The translations under genes and the position numbers were made by a program. DNA of 64,000 nucleotides, from assembly GCA_000697665.1 (NCBI GenBank), contig KL197709.1:1778314-1842313 (forward strand). Direction: 5' to 3'. Below are positions 17,284 through 21,803 of this stretch, in pieces (the first letter of the stretch is position 1; every line of letters begins with the position of its first letter). A model generated the notes under the pieces. The model had not been told where the DNA came from. It saw only the letters and a program-made list of their open reading frames with translations, and searched no databases. The stretch comes from Jaapia argillacea MUCL 33604 (Eukaryota > Basidiomycota > Agaricomycetes > Jaapiales > Jaapiaceae).

Positions 17284-17642
17284 GGTTGTGGTATAGATGG
17301 ACACGTTGGTGGTGCAAGTGTGAAAGTGATGACACAAAGATATGACACATGCTACTATCACGTGAATAACCCTAACCTCGATATGGCCTGCATCCAATCG
17401 GGGAACGCCGAAGGATAGAGCAGCACACCCCGCCCAGCAGCGCTCAACGTCAAGACTATCCTCAAGACCGACATAGTGAGTATTGCCCGCCCATTTTACT
17501 GTGCCAGCATGCTCTGGGAGGTGTCTACGGTGCATCTGTCCCTTTGGATCGAGCGAATGGAGCGACAAACAGGGTGGATGGCTCCAGTCACCTCCAGATG
17601 CACTTGGCCACTTGGGTAACTTCAGCTAACGCCCCCTTACAG
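17284..17642. other. Divergent promoter of SDT1-like and eL6 genes
   Basis: 359 bases between two start codons. A TTACAG acceptor directly abuts the eL6 ATG, with GCTAAC 16 bases upstream as a branch signal, so an intron in the eL6 5' leader probably lies here. Confidence 0.45.
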
Positions 17643-18317
17643 ATGGCCCGCACAAAGCAAGACACACCCGCCACCAAAGAAGTCAAGGTCGGCGGCGACA
17701 AGAACGGCTCCACCCGCCTCATTCCCACATCCAAAGCCCCCCGTTACTACCCAGCAGAAGACGTCCACCAACCAAAGAAATCACGAAAAGTCCCTAAACC
17801 ATCCAACCTCCGCTCATCCATCACTCCCGGTACCGTCTTGATCTTGCTCGCTGGCAGGTTTAGGGGAAAGCGGGTTGTCTTCTTGAAGCAGTTGGAGAGC
17901 GGCCTTTTGTTGGTCACTGGCCCTTACAAGGTTAATGGCGTCCCTCTGCGACGAGTTAGCCAGGCCTACGTTATCGCTACCTCCACCAAAGTTGACTTGG
18001 GCGACTTCAAGGTCTGTCTTTTTTCTCCGATTTCCCTTTTTCCTTGGGTCCTCAAATCGGAATAGGTCAATACCAAGATCAACGACGCTTACTTTGGCAA
18101 ATCAAAAGCCAAGGGTTCCGTCTCAGCAGAACACGAGTTCTTCGAGGATGGAAAGGCAAAGGAGAAGGAGGCTTTCCCCGAATCAAAGGCTGCAGATCAA
18201 AAGGAGGTTGACAAGGCCGTCATTGCTGGTATCAAAAAGACCGAGCATTTGGCAAAGTACTTGAAGGCCACTTGGGGGTTATCCAAGGGTCAGTTCCCTC
18301 ATAGTATGGCGTTCTGA
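17643..18317 (+). CDS. RPL6: 60S ribosomal protein eL6
   Basis: Protein of the large cytoplasmic ribosomal subunit. Two coding exons, 17643-18011 and 18066-18317, with a 54-nt GTCTGT...TAG intron. Family landmarks are the KOW-like core [60 protein letters not shown], and after the splice [14 protein letters not shown], ending [13 protein letters not shown]. Length of about 206 residues fits fungal eL6. The ATG immediately follows an intron acceptor, suggesting a leader intron, as is common for fungal ribosomal protein genes. Confidence 0.95.
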
Positions 18318-18657: not shown

Positions 18658-21600
18658 CTAAAACTCCAACTTAATCCTATGATACAACTCCGCCTCCCTC
18701 CTCATCTCCTCAATCCCCATACCCTCCTTAACCTTCCCATCAACCCCAAAAGCAGTCAACCCCCCATACTCAAACTCTCCCACCTTCTCCGGCACACAAT
18801 TCTCCGGCTTCACTCCATAATCATCAAAAGTGAACGGAGCGCCGGGTGTGACGGGTGCACGGAGTAAGATGGCGTTGATGGATTCGAGAGAGACGTCAGT
18901 ATCGAAATAGTTGAGAGGTGTTAGGAAGAATGAGGAGGCTGCCATGTTGGTGCGGGTGTTGGGGACGTCTTCGGCTTGGGGCTGGTCAAATCCATTAGTC
19001 AGAGTTAAGAGAGGAGGGAAGGAAATAGGTACCAAGTGGTGCATCCCGACGTTCACCCAAGCAACCAAATCCTCCTGAGTGATATTCTCCCCATCAAAGA
19101 ACTTGTGGAAATCCACAACAGGGTCCCCAGGCAAGTTCATATTCCACATACTACTCGAAGTAGGCTCCGTCTCCTTCCTCTTGGACACCGCAAGGTTATA
19201 CCTCGCCCAATTCGCATTGTTCAACAGGCGTTTAGAGCCAACCACAGTCTACGATCAAGCGAGGGGAGTTAGAATCCCGAGCGACATGCTTATGCTGTGA
19301 GAAGGGCAACGTACGTTCCGAATCGGCGAATACCCAGGATGAATAGCATACCCCCTAGGGTTCCCCCACGAGTTCTTCTCCTCACTATTAACAAACGCAT
19401 ATCCACCCTGGAAATTCTCCGGCCAATTCAACAACGCCCCATCCTCATTCTCAATAATCTCTCTATTAATCTTTTGTTGGATAACTTCCGTTCCCCAATC
19501 TTCATCGAGCCACGGGTGCTCGACATGTTCGACGTGAGTCGTAGTGGAGAGGAGAGAGTTGGATAAGCCTGCTACGTCTAGATCGACCTTGTAGTTGATG
19601 ACGTGATCGTGGAGGGAACCCACTGTGCAGAGGTTAGGAGTTAGGTCGTGTATGAGAGGAGAGGGAACGAACTGGATGTATCACGGATCTGGGAACCGTA
19701 TCCTGCTTGGAGGGGCTCCCAGTAGCCTCCTTGCAAGTAACCAGAGGCGGATAGGCGGACTTCGATAGTACCATCAAAGTGGAACATGTAGTCAAACTAC
19801 AAACAAGCACGCCCATCAGTAAAATTCATGATCCGTCTTCAAGGGACTTACGACTGGAGACAAAACAGAGCGCCACGATGTTTAACATGGGCTGTAGTCT
19901 GATGCAAGAGTGTGACTTACGATAGTCATAACTGATCAAGTCCACATCAGTCCAAATTCCTCCAACATCAACGAACGCACTCACTTTCCGACAGTACTGA
20001 TACTCCTAATGGTCAAGACATACCCTCTAATCGATCCAAATTCGCCATCCATATACCCCGTGTGTCTAGAAATCGGTCTCCCACTATCCTGTTCGAAAAT
20101 ACAAATCGCGCGATCTCGAGAGATGCTGCCCAGAGGAGAATGGGTTGTGGCAGGGAGGTAGACCGCTTCGTAAGGACAGTCGTAGCCTGGGATCATGTCT
20201 CGGACAGCTTGGCCCATGCCGAAGAATCGATCGAGCCAGGCGGTTGTGGCTTGCATCGGGTCGTTGCCGGCTAGAAAACGGGTTAGTTAGTGCAAGAGGA
20301 GGAAATACCTGGGGGCCGTACCGTATTGCGCGAGGGCTTCTTGAGGTGCCAGCTGAACATTAGTAGGTTAGAACGCGCAACAACGAAACCATGGAGCGAG
20401 CGACGGTACCTCGTAGACCAGTCTCTCGTTCTTAAACCTGATATCCCAAAGACTCAATCCCATATCCCTATCGAAAGTTTAAGGTTAGACGCTAACTGGG
20501 TGGAGTGAACCACGAGGCTGACCTGTTGAAACCAAGGTATAATCCCCAACCCATCCAGCTGACATACTGTAACGTCCTGTCGACCCTGAACCTCAGGCCA
20601 GCGAAGGAAACTGAACGAGGTCCTGGGAGATGGTCAAGATCGCGAGGCTCCCCGATACGGTGCCTTGCGCTCCAAGAAAGGTCTTGTGTATCTCTCTGAT
20701 CCGGACGATCAGGAAGTCGCTTCAATGTTCCGTTGTGGAAAGCATCCATGAAAGACTCCACCGAAGGGAAAACTTGGTGGTTATACACAATCTGCCAGAG
20801 GGCATATGAGGAACACCGCTTATGTCGATTTGGAATGGACTCACTTTGAGGAGGCTCCATTGAGAAGGATCGGTGCCGCTGACGTCCACGTAGTGGAAGA
20901 AGTTGATCGGGTGCAACCAAGGTCCAGGGATATTTCGTCGCCATGAGACCCACAATCGACGGAAGGAGCCATCGAAGCTGAACGGAGCACTCGCTCCTGC
21001 GATAAGGGTATCGTTGGGCAATCCGAGTGCCACACCGCCAAATAGTTCCTTTTTTGACGTCAAGACATCAGCGAGATGACTTGGGATGACGGGGACGATA
21101 TACCGACCTGAGTGGCCTCGGCTAGAAGGGGCATGTACTTGCCAGCCAAAGGAGTCAGCTCCGTTCCTCGAACGAAGCCACGGGCATGGTAAGGTATTTC
21201 ATCGCGATGATAAATGTCCTTGAGTTCCTCCAGGCTTGTCTTTGAGGAAATCGGGAGCGGCCCAACGAGGTAGTCTTTAATGACAGGAACTGATCCATAA
21301 TGGACAGTAACCCGCGCGTACTTGTCGGGAGGAGGGATCGTAGAAGGTGAGTTCAAGTATGCAACCGCCGCAGCCTTTGGTGGCTGATAGACCTCGATAA
21401 GGTAGATGAAGTTATCCGTGAGTTCTGCGAGGTCACTTTGAGTCAAATTCAACCCTCTATCCGGAGATTCGAGCCATGATTGAATCTCCACAGTCTCGTT
21501 GACTGTTAGTGATGCCCAAATATTCACAGGCGCAGGGGCGGAAGCAGCAGGTGGGAGCCCCGACGCGCAGGCTTTGAGAGGCTTTGAGTCGGATCCTAGA

Positions 21601-21803
21601 AGCCCTGGAATTGTCTCCCCTGGCTGCGACAATGAGTGCGCGGAGAATGGGGAGGAGATGTACACCAAGGAGAGAGTGATCGCGCCGATAATGGCGAGGG
21701 CGCCGTAGCCCGCACGTCGACTGAAGCCCGGCCTGGCCCTCATCTGAGGGTCGACACTTCCATCTGGAAGATCAGACTGCTTCAAGGGCTGATAGCTGGC
21801 CAT
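18658..21803 (-). CDS. Copper amine oxidase, topaquinone type, with N-terminal membrane anchor
   Basis: Oxidises primary amines to aldehydes with release of ammonia and H2O2, using copper and a tyrosine-derived topaquinone. Exon 1 (21803-21108) has a cytoplasmic start MASYQPLKQSDLPDG and one hydrophobic segment (AGYGALAIIGAITLSLVYIS, residues about 40-60), so the enzyme is probably a type II membrane or secretory-pathway protein. N2/N3 domains follow. The catalytic domain includes GWGLYLGFNR, YDCPYEAVYLPATTHS, RHTGYMDGEFGSIRGYVLTI, then STVGNYDYLFDYMFHFDGTI with the topaquinone Tyr in NYDY. Copper ligands appear as HDHVINYKVDLDV and VNVGMHHLPQAEDVPNTRT. The protein ends ELYHRIKLEF. More than ten exons, among them an 11-nt and a 2-nt exon at the active-site motif (separate entries). 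Confidence 0.93.
19852..19853 (-). other. Putative 2-nt microexon
   Basis: The bases TC sit between a TCTCCAG acceptor and a GTAAGT donor. They are needed to complete a Leu codon (C+TC) and restore frame between the 11-nt exon and TTT GAC TAC, giving NYDYLFDY. Flanking introns are 67 nt and 55 nt (19797-19851). Without these two bases the next exon reads straight into TGA. Confidence 0.7.
19921..19931 (-). other. 11-nt microexon carrying the topaquinone tyrosine
   Basis: TTATGACTATC lies between a GATCAG acceptor and a GTAAGT donor. Joined to the preceding ...GGAAA it gives GGA AAT TAT GAC TAT C, the N-Y-D-Y motif. The flanking introns are 53 nt (19932-19984) and 67 nt (19854-19920). Confidence 0.85.

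Follow-up and report, generated by a model that had tools for sequence, protein, structure and literature searches.

A probable two-nucleotide coding exon in the cofactor motif of a Jaapia argillacea copper amine oxidase gene

A probable two-base exon within a copper amine oxidase gene

In a 64,000-nt window of contig KL197709.1 of the wood-dwelling, mushroom-forming fungus Jaapia argillacea MUCL 33604 (the whole stretch of DNA that was analysed, and to which all positions refer), the bases TC at 19853-19852 on the minus strand are, judging from the sequence, very probably a coding exon of 2 nt, constitutively included, in a gene for a copper amine oxidase. The gene occupies positions 18658..21803 of the minus strand, where 12 coding exons join into a reading frame that stays open for 842 codons and ends in a stop (21803 to 18658). 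The catalytic domain of the spliced 842 aa protein matches the copper amine oxidase family model (PF01179.26, E 9.2e-122, positions 2-406 of the 407 in the profile), and the best solved relatives of the protein are 3pgb and 1rky. It contains the sequence GNYDYLFDY, which holds the N-Y-(D or E)-Y cofactor motif and aligns to NYDYMF or NYDYNF in three solved relatives. By letter comparison the spliced model is identical in 842/842 residues to the hypothetical protein JAAARDRAFT_28216 of J. argillacea MUCL 33604 (P0001, a record with ncbi, uniref and nr as its only sources), and because the two agree letter for letter, this public protein already implies the 2-nt exon. With regard to the neighbouring DNA, a plus-strand ORF adjoining the gene (17544-18062) matches part of the L6e ribosomal protein profile (PF01159), and a minus-strand ORF at 23794-24144 matches DUF7704 (PF24803).

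The exon upstream of the motif (19985..20270, like all features here on the minus strand) ends in ...ACTGTCGGAAA, encoding T V G and the first two bases of Asn, and is followed by a 53-nt phase 2 intron (19932..19984, GTGAGT...CAG) and by the 11-nt exon TTATGACTATC (19921..19931), which carries the codon of the tyrosine that we take to become topaquinone, the predicted cofactor. Next are intron 1 (19854..19920, 67 nt, phase 1, GTAAGT...TCTCCAG), the exon TC (19852..19853), which completes the leucine codon CTC, intron 2 (19797..19851, 55 nt, phase 0, GTAAGT...TTTGTAG, with a branch-like CTGAT), and the downstream exon (19673..19796), which opens with TTTGACTAC at 19796 and starts TTTGACTACATG (F D Y M). 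TC is thus flanked on both sides by GT-AG introns of workable length, and the spliced mRNA predicted from this model reads ...AATTATGACTATCTCTTTGACTAC. A sequence-only reading of this DNA had described units of 67 nt and 55 nt with GTAAGT donors and pyrimidine-AG acceptors around TC, placed in the active-site motif; all of these are present, with TC completing the codon after NYDY. Its joined frame AAT TAT GAC TAT CTC TTT GAC TAC (NYDYLFDY) was reproduced from the coordinates, and the TGA that it expected on leaving TC out is also seen, as the reading then becomes TAT CTT TGA with an in-frame stop.

The 11 introns of the gene measure 50-67 nt, and a GTAAGT donor is present in only 2/11, the pair flanking TC. 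A branch site of the form CTNAY is found in intron 2 and in the upstream intron, and is absent from intron 1. The donors of introns 1 and 2 share the 9-mer TCGTAAGTC (minus strand; 19914-19922 and 19845-19853).

Splice models and chance expectation

All GT-AG splice models with up to three introns, each of at least 40 nt, were enumerated between the codons for RSISTV and those for FDYMFHFDGT. This gave 609 models, of which 30 are open in frame, three contain NYDY and a single one contains NYDYxFDY; this is the model with the 2-nt exon, and inclusion of TC is hence needed for both the frame and the conserved motif (1/609 models). When GC donors were also allowed there were 961 models (53 open, five with NYDY), and again NYDYxFDY came from the 2-nt model only.

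The expectation by chance was determined by dinucleotide-shuffling the 124-nt interval 100,000 times, with the outer GTAAGT and TAG restored, and searching for rescue exons. Such an exon had to lie between YAG and GTRAGT, keep the frame free of stops and have an intron of 45 nt or more on either side. A rescue exon of 1-12 nt was found in 291 of the 100,000 shuffles, one of exactly 2 nt in 101, and a 2-nt exon yielding L, I or M in 47.

The cofactor motif in public orthologs

The ortholog set consisted of the best 120 of 591 protein matches, comprising 112 proteins with an ncbi name (that of Jaapia included) and eight unnamed lgn/jgi proteins. The latter are probably transcript-derived, and are called transcript-like here since their contigs, of 1.6 to 4.6 kb, are filled by long unbroken frames. 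All eight read NYDYLFDY or NYDYLFEY, with leucine at the variable position x in 8/8. By the one search pattern used for these best 120 of 591 matches, an intact motif is absent from 70/112 named orthologs versus 0/8 of the unnamed ones, and is present in 50/120 overall (42 named and eight unnamed); an alternative pattern counts 43/120 as intact, and the figures given here rest on the pattern giving 50/120. Among the 42 named proteins with an intact motif, x is L in 28, I in five, M in three, Q in two, and C, G, E and R once each; the six models with Q, C, G, E or R resemble forced frame repair.

Common faults in the ortholog models are skipping of the motif (ST/FDY, GKY/FDY; slashes mark junctions throughout) and introns that are read through. 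The division of 13 coding bases into 11 + 2 by introns is a likely cause of these broken models, and other microexon layouts would also have this effect.

Compatibility with a two-base exon in related fungi

The relatives were judged on translated ORFs and gene models, not on DNA, and since only translations were seen, the pattern reported for them is compatibility after back-translation. Scans of viral and prokaryotic contig collections yielded no relative, which was to be expected. Two short-query searches gave 31 and 92 overlapping matches, mostly short ORFs of fungal contigs, the scoring of the 92-match search being limited to the 8000 candidates sharing most words. Some of these ORFs stay in frame across intron 2. 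A glutamine corresponding to a CAG acceptor precedes the FDY motif in 27 sequences, gene models and ORFs taken together. None of the 10 gene models in this group (0/10) fits the pattern AG/TN/GT, two of these models, P0105 and P0046, look intron-retaining, and another, P0034, fits intron 2 only. Nine raw ORFs with at most 12 codons upstream were too short for the scan, leaving eight with at least 29. Seven of these eight back-translate as YAG/TN/GTRAGT or YAG/TN/GTAYGT with an intron of 50-56 nt, the one without a fit being P0162. After removal of P0152, a near copy of P0128, 6/7 independent ORFs fit, so that related genomes are, at the protein level, compatible with a 2-nt exon. Residue shuffles expect 0.10 fits (P ~1.5e-11), a value that does not come from a blind test, because the pattern was spotted by eye before it was coded (in three sequences first, and in the rest before the scan). 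Of the ORFs obtained after the pattern was known, four of the five usable ones fit.

The background of the AG/TN/GT scan was 25/1758 for six-frame stretches of the window and 18/3195 for stretches of the orthologs. Control exons on the seven ORFs gave no fits for AN, two for CN and none for GN, and control lengths of 0, 1 and 3-12 nt gave between zero and two fits each. The two fits for CN came from P0128 and P0161, as did the two for length 0, and back-translation of these two ORFs is ambiguous; the two for length 10 were P0158 and P0198.

The ORFs were assigned to their nearest protein by comparing a 39-residue coding piece (29 residues for P0198) with the 120 listed proteins, with ties being common. 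By this measure P0128 is nearest to P0005 from Phanerochaete carnosa (38/39), P0127 to P0018 from Rhodofomes roseus (36/39), P0155 to P0029 and P0025 from Phanerochaete sordida and Amylocystis (35 each), P0158 to P0017, P0104 and P0029 (33 each), P0161 to P0096 from Gymnopilus dilepis and others (34), and P0198 to P0060 and P0056 from Gelatoporia and Obba (23/29). The relatives that fit presumably represent several orders besides the Jaapiales. The jgi ORF P0198 has a degenerate coding part (SDYIVHL...LSSSGYLQLGYWERR) and yet fits AG/TN/GT, and is possibly a decaying gene copy. A named model, P0099 from Cyclocybe aegerita, apparently retains intron 1, as it fits Y/GTRAGT, 59 nt and YAG/TN/GTAYGT, and both ends of this intron fit jointly in only 2/100,000 shuffles.

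These fits suggest that a 2-nt exon of the form TN is probably common to several other Agaricomycetes. The sequence-only reading had proposed looking for the same pair of introns in Agaricomycete orthologs, and the outcome is divided: the six of seven ORFs fit TN before intron 2 and P0099 fits intron 1, TN and the following donor, while other relatives fit one of the introns or neither.

Paralogs, other intron states and intron history

A search of the Jaapia genome with PF01179 gave two further loci, L012 and L013. The first reads NYDY N/FDY and has a 50-nt phase-0 intron (L012 1934-1983) at the exact position of intron 2, with the junctions GATTACAAT/GTATGT and CAG/TTCGAC, whereas the intron of L013, read by eye, falls at another point of the motif, within the codon that follows NY. 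One of the two paralogs thus has the phase-0 position in common with the gene, which supports the placement of the second donor directly after CTC. A single DNA query with the whole region 19700-20100 matched only itself in the 43.7-Mb genome, with no other copies found.

In other relatives one or both introns appear to be lacking. A single phase-1 intron fits P0121 and P0153 (48 and 57 nt, ending YAG/TN TTY), and P0173 reads AG/T TAY GAY TAY C/GTAAGT, which has the shape of the 11-nt exon and leads into a single intron of 54 nt. Intron 2 alone fits P0034 from Fibroporia, which has NYDYL and 16 retained codons ending in Q; the upstream intron alone fits P0156, while P0129 and P0149 run through the motif without a break. 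Directly after the NYDY codons, P0053, P0084 and P0099 are compatible with a phase-1 donor of the form GTRAGT or GTAYGT, and P0046, P0057 and P0074 with a looser one; P0043, P0044, P0072, P0116 and others fit neither. We rejected deducing exon structure from broken gene models alone as too loose, since the donor fits vary with stringency. Similarly, the sign x-V-FDY (YAG/TN TTY) fits 21/22 sequences and is weak, because an NYA codon is available for many residues and the 22 include models that skip the motif.

Conservation of the 2-nt exon is patchy, as several relatives are without one or both introns, and since both intron positions recur singly, the simplest account is that of two separate introns lying two bases apart. 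We consider it likely that the 2-nt exon in the cofactor motif is old and common to several Agaricomycetes orders, where it would alternate with one-intron lineages; in the literature searched, it would be the shortest nuclear protein-coding exon reported from a fungus. An origin by tandem duplication or from an introner was rejected, as the two intron bodies are no more alike than shuffles (728/2000 score as high) and have only the donor 9-mer in common. Insertion with a 9-bp target duplication, as suggested by the presence of that 9-mer at both donors, is not favoured either, because its implied precursor would be without two coding bases.

Proposed splicing of the exon and alternative readings

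That TC is a real exon, as proposed in the sequence-only reading, is well supported: its inclusion gives the only tested model that keeps the motif, the resulting protein equals the public one, the leucine recurs in all transcript-like relatives, and the genomic read-through of relatives fits AG/TN/GT. The region would contain two ordinary short U2-type introns two bases apart, in phase 1 (C/TC) and phase 0 (CTC/TTT). Fungal introns in the size range of 50-67 nt are usually recognised across themselves, and each of the two may be defined in this way, aided by its full GTAAGT donor. The introns would be removed one after the other, and after either cut TC sits in a larger exon. Under intron definition the size of the exon would therefore be no obstacle, because the two bases join a larger exon once either intron is out. 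For the APC11 exon of 1 nt, a comparable view of splicing has been put forward (PMC4674806). A weak point of the account for Jaapia is that intron 1 contains no CTNAY branch-like site.

Inclusion of TC would be required for a working enzyme, because joint removal of both introns makes the next codon TGA, and we expect it to be constant. Regulated inclusion of a real exon, with skipping of TC leading to an immediate stop and less enzyme, is unlikely. The reading TAT CTT TGA would allow this, and a 20-nt microexon switch has been published in Trichoderma (PMC11121469), but the two full GTAAGT donors favour constant inclusion.

Less probable by a clear step, and in our view very improbable, is a single longer intron, in which the exon extends past TATC into intron 1 and joins at 19797, adding residues after NYDY. 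Two GT-AG models do keep NYDY and the frame in this way, one using the donor GTGGCG at 19876 and the other GTCTCC at 19861. Both donors depart from GTRAGT, however, and both models bypass two GTAAGT sites. They also place 15 and 20 residues between NYDY and FDY, versus one in 8/8 transcript-like relatives and in three solved relatives, and the public Jaapia protein does not have these extra residues.

An equally small chance attaches to a stwintron or zero-length recursive site, where all 124 nt would be removed in two steps with nothing kept. The second donor does lie two bases from the first acceptor, and nested introns exist in fungi (PMC5639578), but removal of all 124 nt puts TGA directly after NYDYL, and the open models with NYDY do not include this one. 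In a stwintron no exonic base lies between the introns, and at a zero-length recursive site AG/GT regenerates the donor; the arrangement here is AG/TC/GTAAGT, with two needed bases intervening. The recursive-splice intermediate that the sequence-only reading had offered as an alternative is accordingly not needed, since TC must stay in the mRNA and there is no zero-length ratchet site. Just as hard to credit is an assembly or base-call error, by which a normal intron has lost or misplaced two bases and no 2-nt exon exists: there is one assembly of J. argillacea as source, but the donor and acceptor signals of both introns are complete, their lengths are within the 50-66 nt of the other introns or one base above, relatives fit the same AG/TN/GT arrangement, and the position and phase of intron 2 are matched by the paralog L012.

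Comparison with known small exons and implications

Exons of one base have been described in plants, and the earlier characterisation of the TC exon as among the shortest imaginable is therefore fair as a statement on its size, with 1-nt exons being shorter still (PMC4674806, PMC8831610). In Arabidopsis a constitutive 1-nt exon lies between two introns of APC11 (PMC4674806); that exon was tested in vivo, whereas the exon described here is from a fungus, is 2 nt long and is predicted from sequence. A deeply conserved 1-nt microexon with GTRAGT donors is present in VPS55 of land plants, where it has been missed by reference annotations, resulting in wrong predicted proteins (PMC8831610). The main text of that paper deals with plant exons of up to 15 nt and does not contain the terms '2-nt', 'fungi' or 'fungal'; in contrast to VPS55, the Jaapia exon lies in the active-site motif of an enzyme, and its relatives display one-intron states. 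In fungi, a one-base exon has been reported between two neighbouring group II introns of the mitochondrial rnl gene (PMC12308204), which is an rRNA gene, whereas the Jaapia exon would be spliceosomal and protein-coding.

As in the fungal stwintrons, two U2 introns are packed together and would be cut in succession, but in a stwintron a splice signal of one intron is broken up by the other, leaving no exon between them (PMC5639578), whereas in Jaapia two bases stay. The microexon of Xlr2 in Trichoderma virens is likewise from a filamentous fungus and inside a key protein motif, but is 20 nt long and condition-dependent (PMC11121469), while the Jaapia exon has 2 nt and is apparently constitutive. 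The authors of that study stated that filamentous fungi had no previously described functional microexons, and noted tests in fission yeast (PMC11121469). Among the top matches in the literature searched (mostly outside subscription journals), we found no report of a 2-nt exon, nor of a 2-nt microexon in fungi; PMC7725694 was rejected as a 2-nt exon paper, as its table entry means 2 nt of exon 2. New here is the compatibility of relatives with a 2-nt exon. The exon is set apart by its location within the cofactor motif and by being probably conserved.

If confirmed by RNA, the exon would bring the size of fungal spliceosomal exons down to two bases. The absence of an intact active-site motif from 70 of the 112 listed named orthologs calls for caution when loss of amine oxidase is deduced from gene models. 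If both introns do lie two bases apart, the single-intron positions seen elsewhere would represent separate introns and not one intron that has slid, and with lineages that have one of the introns, both or neither, intron sliding can be tested directly against independent gain. The 2-nt exon may also serve as a natural and probably conserved test of an exon that is too small for two spliceosomal complexes at once.
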